From: Roseomonas xinghualingensis
Lineage (GTDB): Bacteria; Pseudomonadota; Alphaproteobacteria; Acetobacterales; Acetobacteraceae
Length of the DNA stretch: 64,000 nucleotides
Direction of reading: 5' to 3'
NCBI RefSeq assembly: GCF_025791835.1
Contig: NZ_JAOXLP010000003.1
Span: forward strand, 1 to 64,000
Positions 8,311-12,777 of the stretch are shown piece by piece. The position numbers and the translations under genes are program-made. Below the pieces are notes generated by a model. The model was not told where the DNA came from. It saw only the letters and a list, made by a program, of their open reading frames with translations, and made no database searches. Numbering within the stretch: the stretch's first letter is position 1; every line of letters starts with the position of its first letter.

Positions 8311-9252
8311 CTATCCGATCAGGAAGCACTTCCCGATGGAGGTGCCGAGGCGGCTGTTGCCGTCGATGATCTCCGCCAGCAGTCCCTCCAGATGGCCGTT
8401 CATCAGATAGGCCGGCGTATGCGCCACGCAGCGGCCGCGCAGGGCGCCCGCCAGGCGGCGGCAGGCCACGCGGTCCTCGCCTTCCGACATGGCCAGGATG
8501 CCGAGCAGGTCGTTCACCTCCTCGTAGCAGGCCATGACGGAACGCGGGTGTTCGGGCCGCATCAGCAGCAACTCCACCACGCGGGCCGGGCGCAGGCGCT
8601 CATGGAACAGATGCTGGTAGGCGCGGAGTGCCGAGACGGAGCGCAGCGTGCCCTGCCACTGGGCATAGTTCTCGGCATTCTCCTCGGCACCGGGAGAGAA
8701 GGCCGAGGCGCGGGAGGCGAGGAGGCGGGCCGTGTTGTCCGCGCGCTCCAGCATCGTCCCGAGGCGGCCGAAGCGCCAGGCGTCGTCGCGCAGCATCGTG
8801 TCGGTGGAGGCCCCGTGGAACAGCAGGGCGCGGGAGAGGACCCAATCGTTGAAGCCCATCAGCCGGTCGCCGCCGGCATCGTCGGGATCCAGCTTCCGCA
8901 AGCCGATCCAGGTGTCGTTCACCGCCTCCCACATATCCACCGTCAGCGCCGTGCGCACGGCGCGGGCATTGCTGCGCGCGGCTTCGAAGCAGGAGGCGAC
9001 CGAGGAGGGATTCAACGTGTCCAGGGTGAGCCAGCGCGTCACCTGGACCGGGGTGGGGTCGCCATAGAGCCGCTGGTAATGGGCACCGGTGCCGGTGGCG
9101 GTGAGGAGGCCGGCCCATTCGGCCGCCTCGGTCCCGCGCGGGGCGGCCAGGGCGGCCATGCGCAGCGTCACGTTCAGGGCGCGGGCGACATTGCCCGCGC
9201 GCTCCATGTAGCGCCCGAGCCAGAAGAGGCTGTCCGCCGTGCGTGCCAGCAT
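8311..9252 (-). CDS. alpha-E domain protein (DUF403)
   Basis: A 313-aa all-helical protein that starts MLARTADSLFWLGRYMERA, the signature N-terminus of the alpha-E family. The motif LERADNTARLL occurs mid-protein, and conserved Arg/Glu helices follow. The function is unknown. The family is found next to circularly permuted ATP-grasp and transglutaminase genes and is thought to act with them in making or attaching a peptide-like tag. The ATG (9252-9250) shares one base with the TGA of the upstream ATP-grasp gene, so translation is coupled. An upstream in-frame start would lie entirely inside the ATP-grasp gene and is not credible. Confidence 0.9.
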   Translation of the reverse strand: MLARTADSLFWLGRYMERAGNVARALNVTLRMAALAAPRGTEAAEWAGLLTATGTGAHYQRLYGDPTPVQVTRWLTLDTLNPSSVASCFEAARSNARAVRTALTVDMWEAVNDTWIGLRKLDPDDAGGDRLMGFNDWVLSRALLFHGASTDTMLRDDAWRFGRLGTMLERADNTARLLASRASAFSPGAEENAENYAQWQGTLRSVSALRAYQHLFHERLRPARVVELLLMRPEHPRSVMACYEEVNDLLGILAMSEGEDRVACRRLAGALRGRCVAHTPAYLMNGHLEGLLAEIIDGNSRLGTSIGKCFLIG

Positions 9253-10754
9253 CAGCCCTGCTTCCCCGCCAGATCCTGGGTCATTCCGCCCATGGACTGG
9301 GTCACGCCCCCTGGCCCCATGGACTGAGCCATGGGCGGTGCATCCTGCTCCAGCACCCAGGTGTCCTTGGTGCCCCCGCCCTGGGAGGAGTTCACCACCA
9401 GCGACCCTTCCCGCAGCGCGACGCGGGTGAGGCCGCCGGGCACGATCCGGACCTGGTCCTTCCCGAAGAGGACGAAGGGGCGGAGATCCACATGGCGCGG
9501 CTGCATGCCGGCCTCGCAGAGGGTGGGCACGGTGGAGAGGGCCAGGGTGGGCTGGGCGATATAGTCCCCGGGCCTGGCCCGGATGCGCTCCGCGAAGGTG
9601 GCGCGCTGCTCGGCGGTGCTGTGCGGTCCGACCAGCATGCCATAGCCCCCGGAGCCGCGGGCGAGCTTCACCACCAGCTCCTGCAGATGGTCGAGGACAT
9701 AGGCGCGCTCCTCCGCGCGCTCGCACATATAGGTCGGCACGTTCTGCAGGATCGGCTCCTCGGAGAAGTAGAAGCGGATCATGGCGGGGACGAAGGGATA
9801 GACCGCCTTGTCATCGGCCACCCCGGCGCCCGGGGCATTGGCCAGGGTCACCCGGCCGGCGCGGTAGGCGGCGATCAGTCCGGGCACGCCGAGCATGGAA
9901 TCCGGGCGGAAGGCGAGGGGATCGAGGAACTCGTCGTCTACGCGCCGGTAGATGACATCCACCCTGCGCGGGCCGGCCGTGGTGCGCATGAAGACGGTAT
10001 TGTCCTGCACGAAGAGGTCTGCGCCCTCGACCAGCTCCACCCCCATCTCATCCGCCAGGAAGGAGTGCTCGTAATAGGCGGAGTTGAAGGGCCCCGGGGT
10101 GAGCACGACGACGGTCGCCTCGCCCTGGCAGGCCGGTGGGGCGAGGGACTTCAGGGTCTCCAGCAGCTCCTCGCAATAATGGCTGACAGGCGCGATGCGG
10201 TGGACGCCGCAAAGATCGGGAAAGAGGCGCATCATCGCCTCCCGGTTCTCCAGCATGTAGGAGACGCCGGACGGAACGCGGCAATTATCCTCCAGAACGA
10301 AGAAGTCCTCCGGGCCGGTGCGGACGAGATCGATGCCGGAAATGACGGTGTAGACCCCGCCAGGGGGCGTGAAGCCCTCCATCATCTCGCGGTAGCCCTC
10401 ATTCCCCAGGACCAGCTCGGCGGGGACCAGCCCTTCCTTCAGGATGCGGCGGGGGCCGTAGATATCGGCCAGGAAGGCATTGAGGGCGCGCACGCGCTGT
10501 TCCAGCCCGCGGTGTAGCCTCTCCCACTCCTGGCGGGCGATGACGCGGGGGATCACGTCGAAGGGGATCAGGCGCTCGGGGTCGCCGCCCTGGTTGTAGA
10601 CAGCGAAGGTGACACCGATGCGGCGGAACAGGATTTCCGCCTCGCGCCGCTTGGCCTCAAGCGCCTCGGCCCCGGCGGTCTCGATATAGCGGGCGATTCC
10701 CTCATAGGGCGCGCGGATGGCGCCCTGGTCGTTCATCTCGTCGAAGGCCGGCAC
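9252..10754 (-). CDS. circularly permuted ATP-grasp protein (DUF404/DUF407 type)
   Basis: A 500-aa protein of the circularly permuted ATP-grasp type-2 family, which presumably forms peptide bonds at the expense of ATP. Characteristic stretches are LIPFDVIPRVI, FNAFLADIYG-like RALNAFLADIYG, EDNCRVPSGVSYMLENR near residues 155-171, VVVLTPGPFNSAYYEH, VDVIYRRVDDEFLDPL, and the nucleotide-binding KLARGSGGYGMLVGP. The C-terminus is low-complexity, rich in Met, Gly and Gln. A GTG start at 10754 is chosen because ACGGAGGACAGG precedes it; ATG at 10736 is an alternative. It is the first gene of the three-gene Anbu cluster. Confidence 0.9.
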   Translation of the reverse strand: MPAFDEMNDQGAIRAPYEGIARYIETAGAEALEAKRREAEILFRRIGVTFAVYNQGGDPERLIPFDVIPRVIARQEWERLHRGLEQRVRALNAFLADIYGPRRILKEGLVPAELVLGNEGYREMMEGFTPPGGVYTVISGIDLVRTGPEDFFVLEDNCRVPSGVSYMLENREAMMRLFPDLCGVHRIAPVSHYCEELLETLKSLAPPACQGEATVVVLTPGPFNSAYYEHSFLADEMGVELVEGADLFVQDNTVFMRTTAGPRRVDVIYRRVDDEFLDPLAFRPDSMLGVPGLIAAYRAGRVTLANAPGAGVADDKAVYPFVPAMIRFYFSEEPILQNVPTYMCERAEERAYVLDHLQELVVKLARGSGGYGMLVGPHSTAEQRATFAERIRARPGDYIAQPTLALSTVPTLCEAGMQPRHVDLRPFVLFGKDQVRIVPGGLTRVALREGSLVVNSSQGGGTKDTWVLEQDAPPMAQSMGPGGVTQSMGGMTQDLAGKQG

Positions 10755-10959
10755 CCTGTCCTCCGTTTGGTGCGGCCGGGAGGGGCCGCCACGTCATCGT
10801 CGCAGCAAGTCGCGTGCCGGGCGAGAGGGCGGGCGCATCGCCTTGTGGCCGCTTTGGATGGAAGACGCACGGACAGCGAAATTTGTTGCCTGCAGGGAAC
10901 GAGGTGATGCGCCGGGGACACGCTAGGAAAGGGCGTGACTCACCTCCGGGATTCGACGC

Positions 10960-10988
10960 TTGCGAAGAATGTTCATGTTTTGTTCATA
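10960..10988 (+). promoter_or_regulatory. putative sigma-70 promoter enclosing an SOS box
   Basis: TTGCGA (10960-10965), a 17-base spacer, and TTCATA (10983-10988). The LexA-type box fills the spacer and the start of the -10. A transcript starting 7-8 bases after the -10 would begin at about 10996, exactly the ATG of the 43-codon ORF, implying a leaderless mRNA. Confidence 0.5.
10971..10985 (+). promoter_or_regulatory. LexA (SOS) box, alphaproteobacterial type
   Basis: GTTCATGTTTTGTTC is a perfect GTTC-N7-GTTC match to the LexA operator known from alphaproteobacteria such as Caulobacter, Rhizobium and Rhodobacter. The AT-rich spacer stands out against the local GC content. It lies 11 bases before the ATG of a small membrane ORF. 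Confidence 0.75.
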
Positions 10989-10995
10989 TGTGCCC

Positions 10996-11127
10996 ATGCG
11001 ATACATCCATGCGGCAACCCGCCCGATCATCCCCAATGATGCCGTCCGCGAAGCGATGCTGGCCTTTGTTTTCGCCTTCCCGGCCTTCTGGGCCCTGGGA
11101 GAAGTGCTGGTGGCCTTCGGTTCCTGA
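10996..11127 (+). CDS. putative SOS-induced 43-aa single-span membrane protein
   Basis: Not a recognised family. The frame has a short N-terminal part with basic and acidic residues (MRYIHAATRPIIPNDAVREA). One hydrophobic helix of about 22 residues follows, with FVFAFPAFWALG at its centre, ending VLVAFGS. Third codon positions are about 74% G or C, reasonable for a gene here. There is no ribosome binding site, but the predicted transcription start coincides with the ATG, so leaderless translation is likely. Size, topology and SOS control recall SidA, the 29-aa SOS cell-division inhibitor of Caulobacter, though no sequence similarity is claimed. The alkA-like gene converges 25 bases downstream. 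Confidence 0.5.
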   Translation: MRYIHAATRPIIPNDAVREAMLAFVFAFPAFWALGEVLVAFGS

Positions 11128-11152
11128 GCGATTGTTCCTGAGGGGCGGCGGC

Positions 11153-11803
11153 TCAGCCGTCATCCTCCGGATCGGCGCCGGGGCGGCCGGTGGCATGGCG
11201 CCAGTGGTGCCAGAGCAGACGCGCCGCGATGGAACGCCAGGGGCGCCATTGTTCCGCCAGCACCGCCAGGGTGCGCGGCGTGGGGCGGGATGGCAGTCCA
11301 CGCAGATGTGCCAGGGCAGCGGCAAGGGCGAGGTCGCCCTCGGGGAAGATATCCGGCCGACCCTCCGCGAAGAGGAGATGGACCTGGGCTGTCCAGCGGC
11401 CCAGGCCGCGCACGGCGGAAAGATGGGCGATGGCCTCCTCGTCCTCCATGGAGGGCAGGGCATCCAGGCGCAGCCTTCCCTCCAATATCGCGGCGGCCAG
11501 GCTGCGGGCATGGGCCGCCTTGGGCCGGGAGAGGCCAGCCAGGCGGCAAAGTTCCGCATCATCCAGCGCCAGGAGACCGGCAGGCTCCAGCGCTCCCGGC
11601 AAGGCTCGAAGCCGGCCCCAGATGGCGCCGGCGGCACGATTGCTGATCTGCTGACCGCAAATGGTACGGAGAAGGCCCGGAAAGCCTGGCGGACGGCTGC
11701 GCCAGGGTAGCGGCCCGGCCCTGTCGAGCACGCCATGCAGTGCCGGATCGGCCAGGGCGAGGGTGGCAAGGCCGCGTTCGGCCCATTCCGGACTTGTCTG
11801 CAT
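11153..11803 (-). CDS. DNA-3-methyladenine glycosylase II (AlkA-type)
   Basis: A 216-aa HhH-GPD-superfamily glycosylase that would excise alkylated bases in base-excision repair. Visible marks are LRTICGQQISNRAAGAIWGRL (QQIS helix), LSRPKAAHARSLAAAI, the helix-hairpin-helix LSAVRGLGRWTAQVHLLF, and the GPD loop with catalytic Asp in PDIFPEGDLAL. It is the short bacterial form, lacking the N-terminal domain of E. coli AlkA. The ATG at 11803 gives the family's usual length. Longer in-frame starts (for example 11932) add a low-complexity Pro/Arg tract. It faces the SOS-controlled mini-ORF; no SOS box is seen at its own start. Confidence 0.85.
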   Translation of the reverse strand: MQTSPEWAERGLATLALADPALHGVLDRAGPLPWRSRPPGFPGLLRTICGQQISNRAAGAIWGRLRALPGALEPAGLLALDDAELCRLAGLSRPKAAHARSLAAAILEGRLRLDALPSMEDEEAIAHLSAVRGLGRWTAQVHLLFAEGRPDIFPEGDLALAAALAHLRGLPSRPTPRTLAVLAEQWRPWRSIAARLLWHHWRHATGRPGADPEDDG

Positions 11804-12005
11804 CAGGAGAGGAGGGGTGAACGGCGGCGGGAGGCGCGACAAGGGGGGATGCGAACCATCCCGCCGCCGTTTCTCCGGCAATGCCCGGGGATTTGGGGGG
11901 AAGGGCATCGCCGTTGGGTCAGATTTGGCCATCCCCCACGGCCGATCCAACCCGCAATTCCGGAATGGTGAAACGGCGCGCAACGCGGGGCACTCTTGAC
12001 ATGGA

Positions 12006-12057
12006 ATGTAACAAGCTTCCCCCGCGACATTGGTCAGGCCTGCTCTATGTAACAAGC
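12006..12057 (+). promoter_or_regulatory. direct repeat ATGTAACAAGC, possible response-regulator sites
   Basis: The 11-mer ATGTAACAAGC occurs at 12006-12016 and again at 12047-12057, 41 bp apart. The second copy abuts the ATG of the response regulator. OmpR-class regulators bind direct repeats with GTAACA-like cores, so autoregulation is plausible. No Shine-Dalgarno sequence is visible before the ATG at 12058. Confidence 0.45.
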
Positions 12058-12777
12058 ATGGAACCCGCCCCGCACATCCTCGTCGTCGATGACGACCGCG
12101 AGATCCGCGAATTGCTGGCCCGCTTCCTGGAGAAGCAGGGCTTTCGCGTGACCACCGCCCGGGAGGCGCGGGAGGCGCGGCGGGTCTGGCCGCTGGGGCG
12201 ATACCACATCGTGATCCTGGACCTGATGATGCCAGGGGAATCCGGGCTGGATTTCGCCCGCTGGCTGCGCAGCCAGTCGGATGTGCCGATCGTCATGCTC
12301 ACCGCCATGGGAGAGGAGACGGACCGCATCGTCGGGCTGGAGCTGGGCGCGGATGACTATGTGGCCAAGCCCTTCAACCCGCGCGAACTGCTGGCGCGCA
12401 TCCGGGCTGTGATGCGCCGTGCCCATGGCGAGGGGCAGCGGAGGGACCCGCTGCCGAGCGCCATCCGCTTCGGCGGCTGGACGCTGGAGCCACAGCGGCG
12501 CCGGCTGCTGAACCCGGATGGGGCTGAGGTCTCGCTCACCGGCGGCGAGTACGAGCTGCTGACCGTTCTGGTGGAGCGCCCGAATCGTGTCCTGACGCGC
12601 GACATGCTGATGGACCTGCTGCGCGGCCGGCAGGCGGGTCCCTTCGACCGGGCGATCGACGTGGCGGTGTCCCGTCTGCGGCGCAAGCTGGAGGATGACG
12701 GGCGCAATCCCAGCCTTATCAAGACCGTGCGCGGCGGCGGCTATGTGCTCGCGGCCGATGTGGAGCGGGCGGCCTAG
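12058..12777 (+). CDS. OmpR-family response regulator
   Basis: A 239-aa two-component regulator. The receiver domain covers residues 5-120 with acidic pocket D11-D13, phospho-acceptor D55 (VILDLMMPG), the switch Thr in MLTAMGEE and K in YVAKPFNPREL. The C-terminal winged-helix DNA-binding domain covers about 135-232 and ends RRKLEDDGRNPSLIKTVRGG. The start at 12058 begins directly at the receiver; earlier in-frame ATGs would add 20-60 residues of poor quality. The histidine kinase follows after 26 bases. Pairing and order are OmpR/EnvZ-like; the input signal is unknown. Confidence 0.93.
   Translation: MEPAPHILVVDDDREIRELLARFLEKQGFRVTTAREAREARRVWPLGRYHIVILDLMMPGESGLDFARWLRSQSDVPIVMLTAMGEETDRIVGLELGADDYVAKPFNPRELLARIRAVMRRAHGEGQRRDPLPSAIRFGGWTLEPQRRRLLNPDGAEVSLTGGEYELLTVLVERPNRVLTRDMLMDLLRGRQAGPFDRAIDVAVSRLRRKLEDDGRNPSLIKTVRGGGYVLAADVERAA

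Follow-up and report, generated by a model that had tools for sequence, protein, structure and literature searches.

Several small membrane proteins that are made after DNA damage have been described in bacteria. SidA of Caulobacter is described as an SOS inhibitor of 29 amino acids (aa) in the inner membrane, which interacts with FtsW, and DidA of the same genus as a single-span, damage-induced division inhibitor of 71 aa (both PMC4211646). SidA is reported within the LexA regulon of Caulobacter, whose box is GTTCN7GTTC (PMC12700426). The membrane segment of YneA is reported to bind transmembrane segment 7 (TM7) of FtsW, and AlphaFold 3 models in the same source suggest, at low confidence, the same FtsW contact for SidA, SosA and ChiZ (PMC13396833). 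In Escherichia coli, DinQ (PMC3567139) and TisB (PMC11575346) are described as small membrane peptides under SOS control. Here, we analyzed a 43-codon gene of Roseomonas xinghualingensis (assembly GCF_025791835.1), located in the first 64,000 nucleotides (nt) of contig NZ_JAOXLP010000003.1; this whole stretch is called the window in the following. We consider it reasonably likely that the gene is a one-gene SOS unit, which is LexA-repressed and leaderless and encodes a membrane effector anchored by its C-terminal tail, most likely a division inhibitor. The unit comprises the following features:

10959..10965, + strand: -35 element CTTGCGA, with the hexamer TTGCGA at 10960-10965
10971..10985, + strand: LexA (SOS) operator GTTCATGTTTTGTTC, a perfect GTTC-N7-GTTC within the promoter spacer, found in the sequence and in 11/11 close genus homologues
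10983..10988, + strand: -10-like hexamer TTCATA, overlapping the 3' half of the operator, with a 17-bp spacer from TTGCGA
10996..11127, + strand: 43-codon gene for a putatively SOS-controlled small membrane protein, predicted to be leaderless, with a predicted transcript start on the ATG or at most two bases away (purifying selection, kept start, homologues), with the start ATG at 10996 and the stop codon at 11125-11127
10996..11034, + strand: head of the protein, residues 1-13 (MRYIHAATRPIIP), predicted to be cytoplasmic and probably flexible (AlphaFold2, genus alignment)
11035..11121, + strand: predicted single helix, residues 14-42, with REA near its start and W32 and E36 in the hydrophobic stretch (AlphaFold2)

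A first-pass annotation of the window, made from the letters alone, had pointed to a perfect LexA box in the spacer of a TTGCGA/TTCATA promoter and to the 43-codon frame behind it, and the box is present there. A box of this kind is unremarkable by itself. One perfect box was observed in the window and 0.61 are expected by chance; the box alone was dropped as evidence for this reason. The 102 perfect boxes of the whole genome represent a modest excess over the 64 found for the reversed pattern. The reality of the finding therefore hangs on conservation. The 43-aa protein was searched in 100 related genomes, including the query genome, at E ≤ 0.01. It was found in 11 of the 15 congeneric genomes, counting that of the window, with E-values from 3e-16 to 1.5e-24, and this single-protein search gave no match in the other 85 genomes at the same threshold. 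A perfect GTTC-N7-GTTC is located 9-10 nt 5' of the ATG in all 11 close genus homologues, again with the window's copy included. Compared with its genus relatives, the window copy shows nonsynonymous divergence (dN) of 0.09-0.16 and synonymous divergence (dS) of 0.77-1.55, with dN/dS ratios of 0.07-0.20. Among the close genus copies, 905 of 1372 pairwise differences fall on third codon positions. Judged by these sequence comparisons, the frame is confirmed as a real gene under purifying selection, as the first-pass annotation had assumed. The frame and its upstream box, which it had proposed to trace together in relatives, are both kept in the 11 close copies. A box kept beside a lost frame, the case that it had named as speaking against the gene, was not found at the orthologous place; no genome-wide survey of frame-less boxes was made.

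The distance between box and ATG varies by one base between species. Reading frames that run through the operator are thus not conserved, which places the start at ATG 10996. In public records the frame is sometimes entered as "hypothetical protein", so that the idea of a gene too small for standard annotation did not hold. Three predicted proteins (P0003, P0005 and P0007) begin with MFCS or MLCS, from an ATG inside the LexA operator. Such annotated starts inside the operator are probably mis-starts, judging from the alignments, and a systematic error for this family of small membrane proteins is likely. Named database records of the 43-aa protein come from Roseomonas, Muricoccus and Pararoseomonas, and its homologues are named hypothetical or uncharacterised protein among the 120 of 150 that were listed.

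Further members were sought by iterated protein profiles, which were made without using the box. A profile of the genus copies gave four weak matches in other genera. Three of them have a perfect box 10, 10 and 28 nt 5' of the ATG of a small frame, and the fourth (L031), having no box, was dropped. A DNA match of 36 bp, seen in G015 of another genus, was attributed to chance. The second-round profile, built from the genus copies, these three matches and some database homologues, was applied to 397 genomes of the taxonomic family at E ≤ 0.05. In all genome searches this family is a single group, which comprises at least 102 genera and presumably corresponds to the Acetobacteraceae in a broader sense. 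The search gave 82 matches in 72 genomes, of which 68 lie off the training loci; 56 of the latter were fetched. A perfect box is located 10-15 nt 5' of an in-frame ATG at 38 of these 56 and a degenerate box at two (L138 and L165). The 16 box-less matches, mostly partial matches inside long frames, were taken as chance. The absence of the gene from four congeners was overturned by the improved profile: in each of these genomes, which had appeared empty beside the glycosylase gene described below, a divergent copy with a perfect box was found elsewhere.

The third-round profile consisted of 47 full-length members and was run on the same 397 genomes, covering 102 genera, at E ≤ 0.01. It gave 105 matches in 94 genomes and 28 genera, chance matches included. 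All of the matches but ten, which have E-values above 0.001, were examined. Among the 41 newly examined matches, 23 have a perfect box that is followed by a start at 10-27 nt, and 11 (L270-L280), mostly long-frame or partial matches, are box-less and were taken as chance. Two others, L264 and L267, carry the head motif described below and a hydrophobic end without a box. The 22 third-round matches with E < 1e-5 comprise 17 with a perfect box (two of them at 27 nt from the ATG) and five with a one-mismatch box. In total, perfect boxes were found at members in 17 genera (handles g1, g5, g16, g21, g24, g28, g35, g36, g44, g87, g99, g103, g115, g128, g130, g135 and g142), where g44 is included on E-values of about 0.001, which are weak. 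In g15, which is not counted among the 17, the box has one mismatch. The protein family is fast-evolving and its members are 43-89 aa long. Two copies, each with its own perfect box, are present in G415 (L210) and three in G376 (L143, L160 and L169). These multiple copies are a recent duplication in genus g142.

As a control at class level, the 47-member profile was run on 385 genomes of the class at E ≤ 0.02. The stretch between 600 nt upstream and 200 nt downstream of the match start was inspected for boxes in both orientations, and none was found at the 18 matches outside the query genome; one of the 18 (G119) is a genome of the same taxonomic family. In addition, a pattern that is blind to the protein, CTTG-N7/8-GTTC-N7-GTTC-N9-11-ATG, was searched in 244 family genomes. 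It gave 44 matches in 43 genomes versus 2 for the reversed pattern. By eye, from their translations, 36 of the 44 were classed as small membrane proteins of the family kind, the most divergent ones (g16 and g28) being classed by reading a small frame whose C-terminal end is hydrophobic and not statistically. The remaining eight matches (G149, G106, G243, G031, G105, G175, G218 and G027) are not such proteins. The one in G218 (L305) is a 296-codon frame with the full leaderless SOS layout of CTTG, box and ATG. Known members, e.g., in G003, G004, G006, G011, G018 and G116, are overlooked by the pattern, which is thus specific but not complete.

The same box motif is located upstream of lexA and recA of this genome, in opposite orientation to the window operator. 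An operator like theirs occupies a fixed place in the promoter, both in the 11 close copies of the genus and across the wider family. The distance from the box end to the ATG is 9-11 nt in 71 of 79 members and 15-28 nt in the other 8. A TTG starts 10-11 nt 5' of the box in 69 of the 79 promoters and is absent from this place in 10, all promoters having been picked for the box. Among the close genus copies, CTTG[CT] is found 6-7 nt 5' of the box in 10 of 11, with L006 as the exception. The 68 promoters with a box-to-ATG spacing of 10-11 nt have CTTGC as their consensus and carry a T at two positions of the box spacer in every case (68/68). Directly 3' of the operator, at the place of the -10 element, an A is found in 49 and a T in 63 of these 68 aligned promoters. 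A strict scan for the sigma-70 consensus leaves the window promoter TTGCGA/TTCATA uncalled, and the leaderless reading for this reason rests on the conserved geometry. With a 17-bp spacer, the transcript would start on or next to the ATG, which leaves no room for a ribosome-binding site. Most members are predicted to have no room for a Shine-Dalgarno site and look leaderless. Fifteen of the 79 promoters carry a second, reversed operator up to 80 nt 5' of the ATG, which in 12 of them is located 33 nt upstream of the first one. At L134, L139, L140, L145, L146, L151, L159, L164 and L166 (g24, g36 and g103), GAAC-N7-GAAC is located 32-33 nt upstream of the first operator. This second operator suggests tighter repression, as if leakage were harmful. 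Taken as a whole, the promoter comparisons strongly support SOS control of the 43-codon gene.

Based on the family alignment, AlphaFold2 predicts one confident helix from residue 14 to 42 with a mean pLDDT (predicted local distance difference test) of 86 and no helix before residue 14; the block of residues 1-10 has a mean of 59. The first-pass annotation had described one hydrophobic helix after a charged head of 20 residues. The helix stands, and the head is shortened to about 13 residues, since the helix begins at about residue 14. Ten of the 13 head residues are invariant across the 11 close genus copies. Among 47 members, A20 and E36 show a conservation of at least 90%, and the nearly invariant acidic residue of the helix suggests a partner within the membrane. 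In 67 of the 74 distinct proteins, the head carries more positive charge than the tail, which suggests an N-inside topology. The best 19-residue mean of hydropathy reaches 1.6 or more in 55 of the 74 and 1.2 or more in 73. The 43-aa product is accordingly predicted to be a very small single-span membrane protein. The hydrophobic stretch lies at the very end in most members; in g36 some 20-30 residues follow it. A loose pattern gave an IPPxP-like motif in the head of 54 of the 74 distinct members, the window's genus being without it. A head of the form LxIPPxPR was considered as a mimic of the C-terminal peptide of FtsZ and rejected, the motif having no hydrophobic pair. No family of Pfam, NCBIfam or PHROGs fits the 47 members scanned at E ≤ 0.1; matches were to single members only, with best E-values of 0.054 (Pfam), 0.03 (NCBIfam) and 0.0064 (PHROGs, an unnamed family). 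Genus-level queries matched no plasmid homologue. Their one match on a viral contig (IMG/VR) has no box and, by eye from its translation, reads as part of a larger glycosyltransferase-like enzyme frame.

We propose the following course of events. LexA, bound at 10971-10985 over the spacer and the -10 region, would keep the gene off. After DNA damage, RecA would become active and LexA would be cleaved, so that transcription could begin at ATG 10996 or an adjacent base and yield a leaderless mRNA. The product of 43 aa would keep its N-terminus in the cytoplasm and be anchored by its single C-terminal helix. It would then most likely pause division during DNA repair, and the membrane segment with its Trp and Glu may contact the septal cell-wall machinery helix-to-helix, FtsW, FtsI and FtsN being the leading candidates. 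LexA repression, transcript start, topology, target and division effect are all steps that we infer. A late block of division is favoured because very small SOS-controlled membrane proteins act in this way elsewhere. It is possible, and we put it forward tentatively, that the family represents an unrecognised effector of an SOS division checkpoint in Roseomonas and many related genera, which evolved independently of SidA, YneA and SosA and stops septal wall synthesis from within the membrane. If true, the FtsW complex would be a target on which yet another family has converged, here with a geometry of promoter, operator and start that is rigid enough to reveal many members without recourse to their protein sequence.

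Several points weigh against the proposed SOS unit and its role in division. The family is patchy (94/397 genomes and 28/102 genera at E ≤ 0.01, chance matches included), and the presence of three loci in G376 and of two in G415 is unexpected for a checkpoint gene. In most members almost nothing follows the helix, whereas YneA is reported to require its periplasmic LysM domain, the membrane segment alone not inhibiting division (PMC13396833). The profile scans of the 47 members gave no sequence link to a known division inhibitor. At 8 of the 79 operators, the distance of 15-28 nt to the chosen ATG makes a short leader possible.

Among other explanations, a chance pairing of box and frame, with the operator serving nothing or another gene, fits the near-expected number of boxes in the window. 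We regard it as extremely improbable, as 17 genera have kept box, spacing and frame in combination and the controls were clean. A toxic role of small, SOS-controlled single-span peptides is described for DinQ (PMC3567139) and TisB (PMC11575346), and DinQ is described as opposed by antisense RNAs (PMC3567139). The main rival reading is that the family is of this type, an SOS-induced membrane toxin that would depolarise or damage the membrane and thereby slow growth or promote dormancy; the tight repression suggested by the second upstream operator in 15/79 promoters agrees with it. TisB is likewise opposed by an antisense RNA, and the mRNAs of both TisB and DinQ have leaders. Most family members, in contrast, have no room for one, and with 9-11 nt between operator and ATG in 71/79 there is no leader for antisense control. 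No Rfam family was found at gathering score in 10700-12100, where an undescribed antisense RNA may exist. The near-invariant Glu of the helix and the conserved helix start point to a specific partner more than to a generic pore, and we consider a toxin unlikely.

The protein may also be an SOS-induced membrane adaptor or regulator outside division, which would recruit or inhibit, e.g., a protease, a transporter or a repair factor via its head. The IPPxP-like motif and the divergent heads could be docking peptides, and a transmembrane transcription factor tied to the SOS response is described in Caulobacter (PMC13384398). However, no partner gene is common to all of the 20 neighbourhoods examined, and the head is short and motif-less in the window's genus. 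We regard an adaptor as quite improbable. A division inhibitor is the function that we prefer.

The following genes flank the unit:

9252..10754, - strand: divergent CP-ATP-grasp-type gene, the upstream neighbour, kept in the genus
11153..11797, - strand: HhH-GPD DNA glycosylase gene (PF00730), the converging neighbour, outside the unit

CP-ATP-grasp-type is a name that we take to apply to the upstream gene. It is divergent from a family member in 14 of the 15 genus genomes (the window's included), and in the fifteenth (G013) it lies about 2.4 kb from the family member. Among the four congeners with a divergent copy, this arrangement is seen in three. The glycosylase, which has a weak, below-cut-off match to DNA-3-methyladenine glycosylase 2, adjoins the small gene in 11 of the 15 genus genomes, and all 11 close copies lie between the two neighbours. 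Its convergence on the small gene, noted in the first-pass annotation, is thus correct for the window; it is not a constant neighbour and carries no weight. In genus g135, three of four loci are located beside a histidine kinase-response regulator-glycosylase (HK-RR-glycosylase) block, which flanks the window copy as well. This neighbourhood, common to the window's genus and g135, points to common descent across the two genera despite very different heads. None of the five neighbour genes of the window was found at the fourth g135 locus (G148) or at the 12 loci examined in other genera.

Boxes were also observed at three other loci of the same genome. An ImuA-like gene at L034 (C94:2512-4326) has its start codon overlapped by the box GTTCTCTTTATGTTC, and this SOS gene may have an unusual start; its match to the NCBIfam ImuA family is below the cut-off. 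A perfect box, GTTCGTGATATGTTC, lies 126 nt 5' of a frame read by eye as ClpX at L043 (C64:79725-81539), where SOS control of a protease subunit is possible, or chance. L048 (C41:356562-358376) has two opposed boxes with a distance of 51 bp between a gene read by eye as radical-SAM-like and one read as transporter-binding-protein-like, possibly a divergent SOS promoter.

Among the articles listed by a literature search limited to open-licence PMC content, none reports the family, and none describes an SOS inhibitor of division for Roseomonas or Acetobacteraceae. The effector had been proposed for Acetobacteraceae; the protein family extends more widely than this proposal foresaw, and the present NCBI taxonomy puts Roseomonas and Falsiroseomonas into the Roseomonadaceae, order Acetobacterales. 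The novelty lies in how large the protein family is and in the rigidity of its SOS layout. For most bacteria outside the SulA group, the way in which division is restrained after DNA damage is known in few species, and the present family is uncharacterised and uniformly regulated in 17 genera. The fixed layout of promoter, operator and start recovers very small, fast-diverging genes where sequence similarity fails. The family also offers a natural model of leaderless translation under stress.

The first-pass annotation had suggested an SOS effector analogous to SidA. LexA box and small single-span protein are indeed kept together, and the likeness, drawn by analogy, is one of regulation, size and topology: SidA is a small inner-membrane protein in the LexA regulon of an alphaproteobacterium with the GTTCN7GTTC box, and the members are predicted small membrane proteins with such a box. 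Unlike SidA with its 29 aa, the members have 43-89 aa and mostly a basic head before the C-terminal helix. DidA is similar as a small single-span protein; the LexA box at the window gene is a difference. The family also resembles YneA of Bacillus, SosA of Staphylococcus and ChiZ of Mycobacterium, damage-induced small membrane inhibitors of division, in being a small membrane protein, here with predicted SOS control. YneA and ChiZ carry a LysM domain, whereas most members of the present family have almost nothing after the helix.
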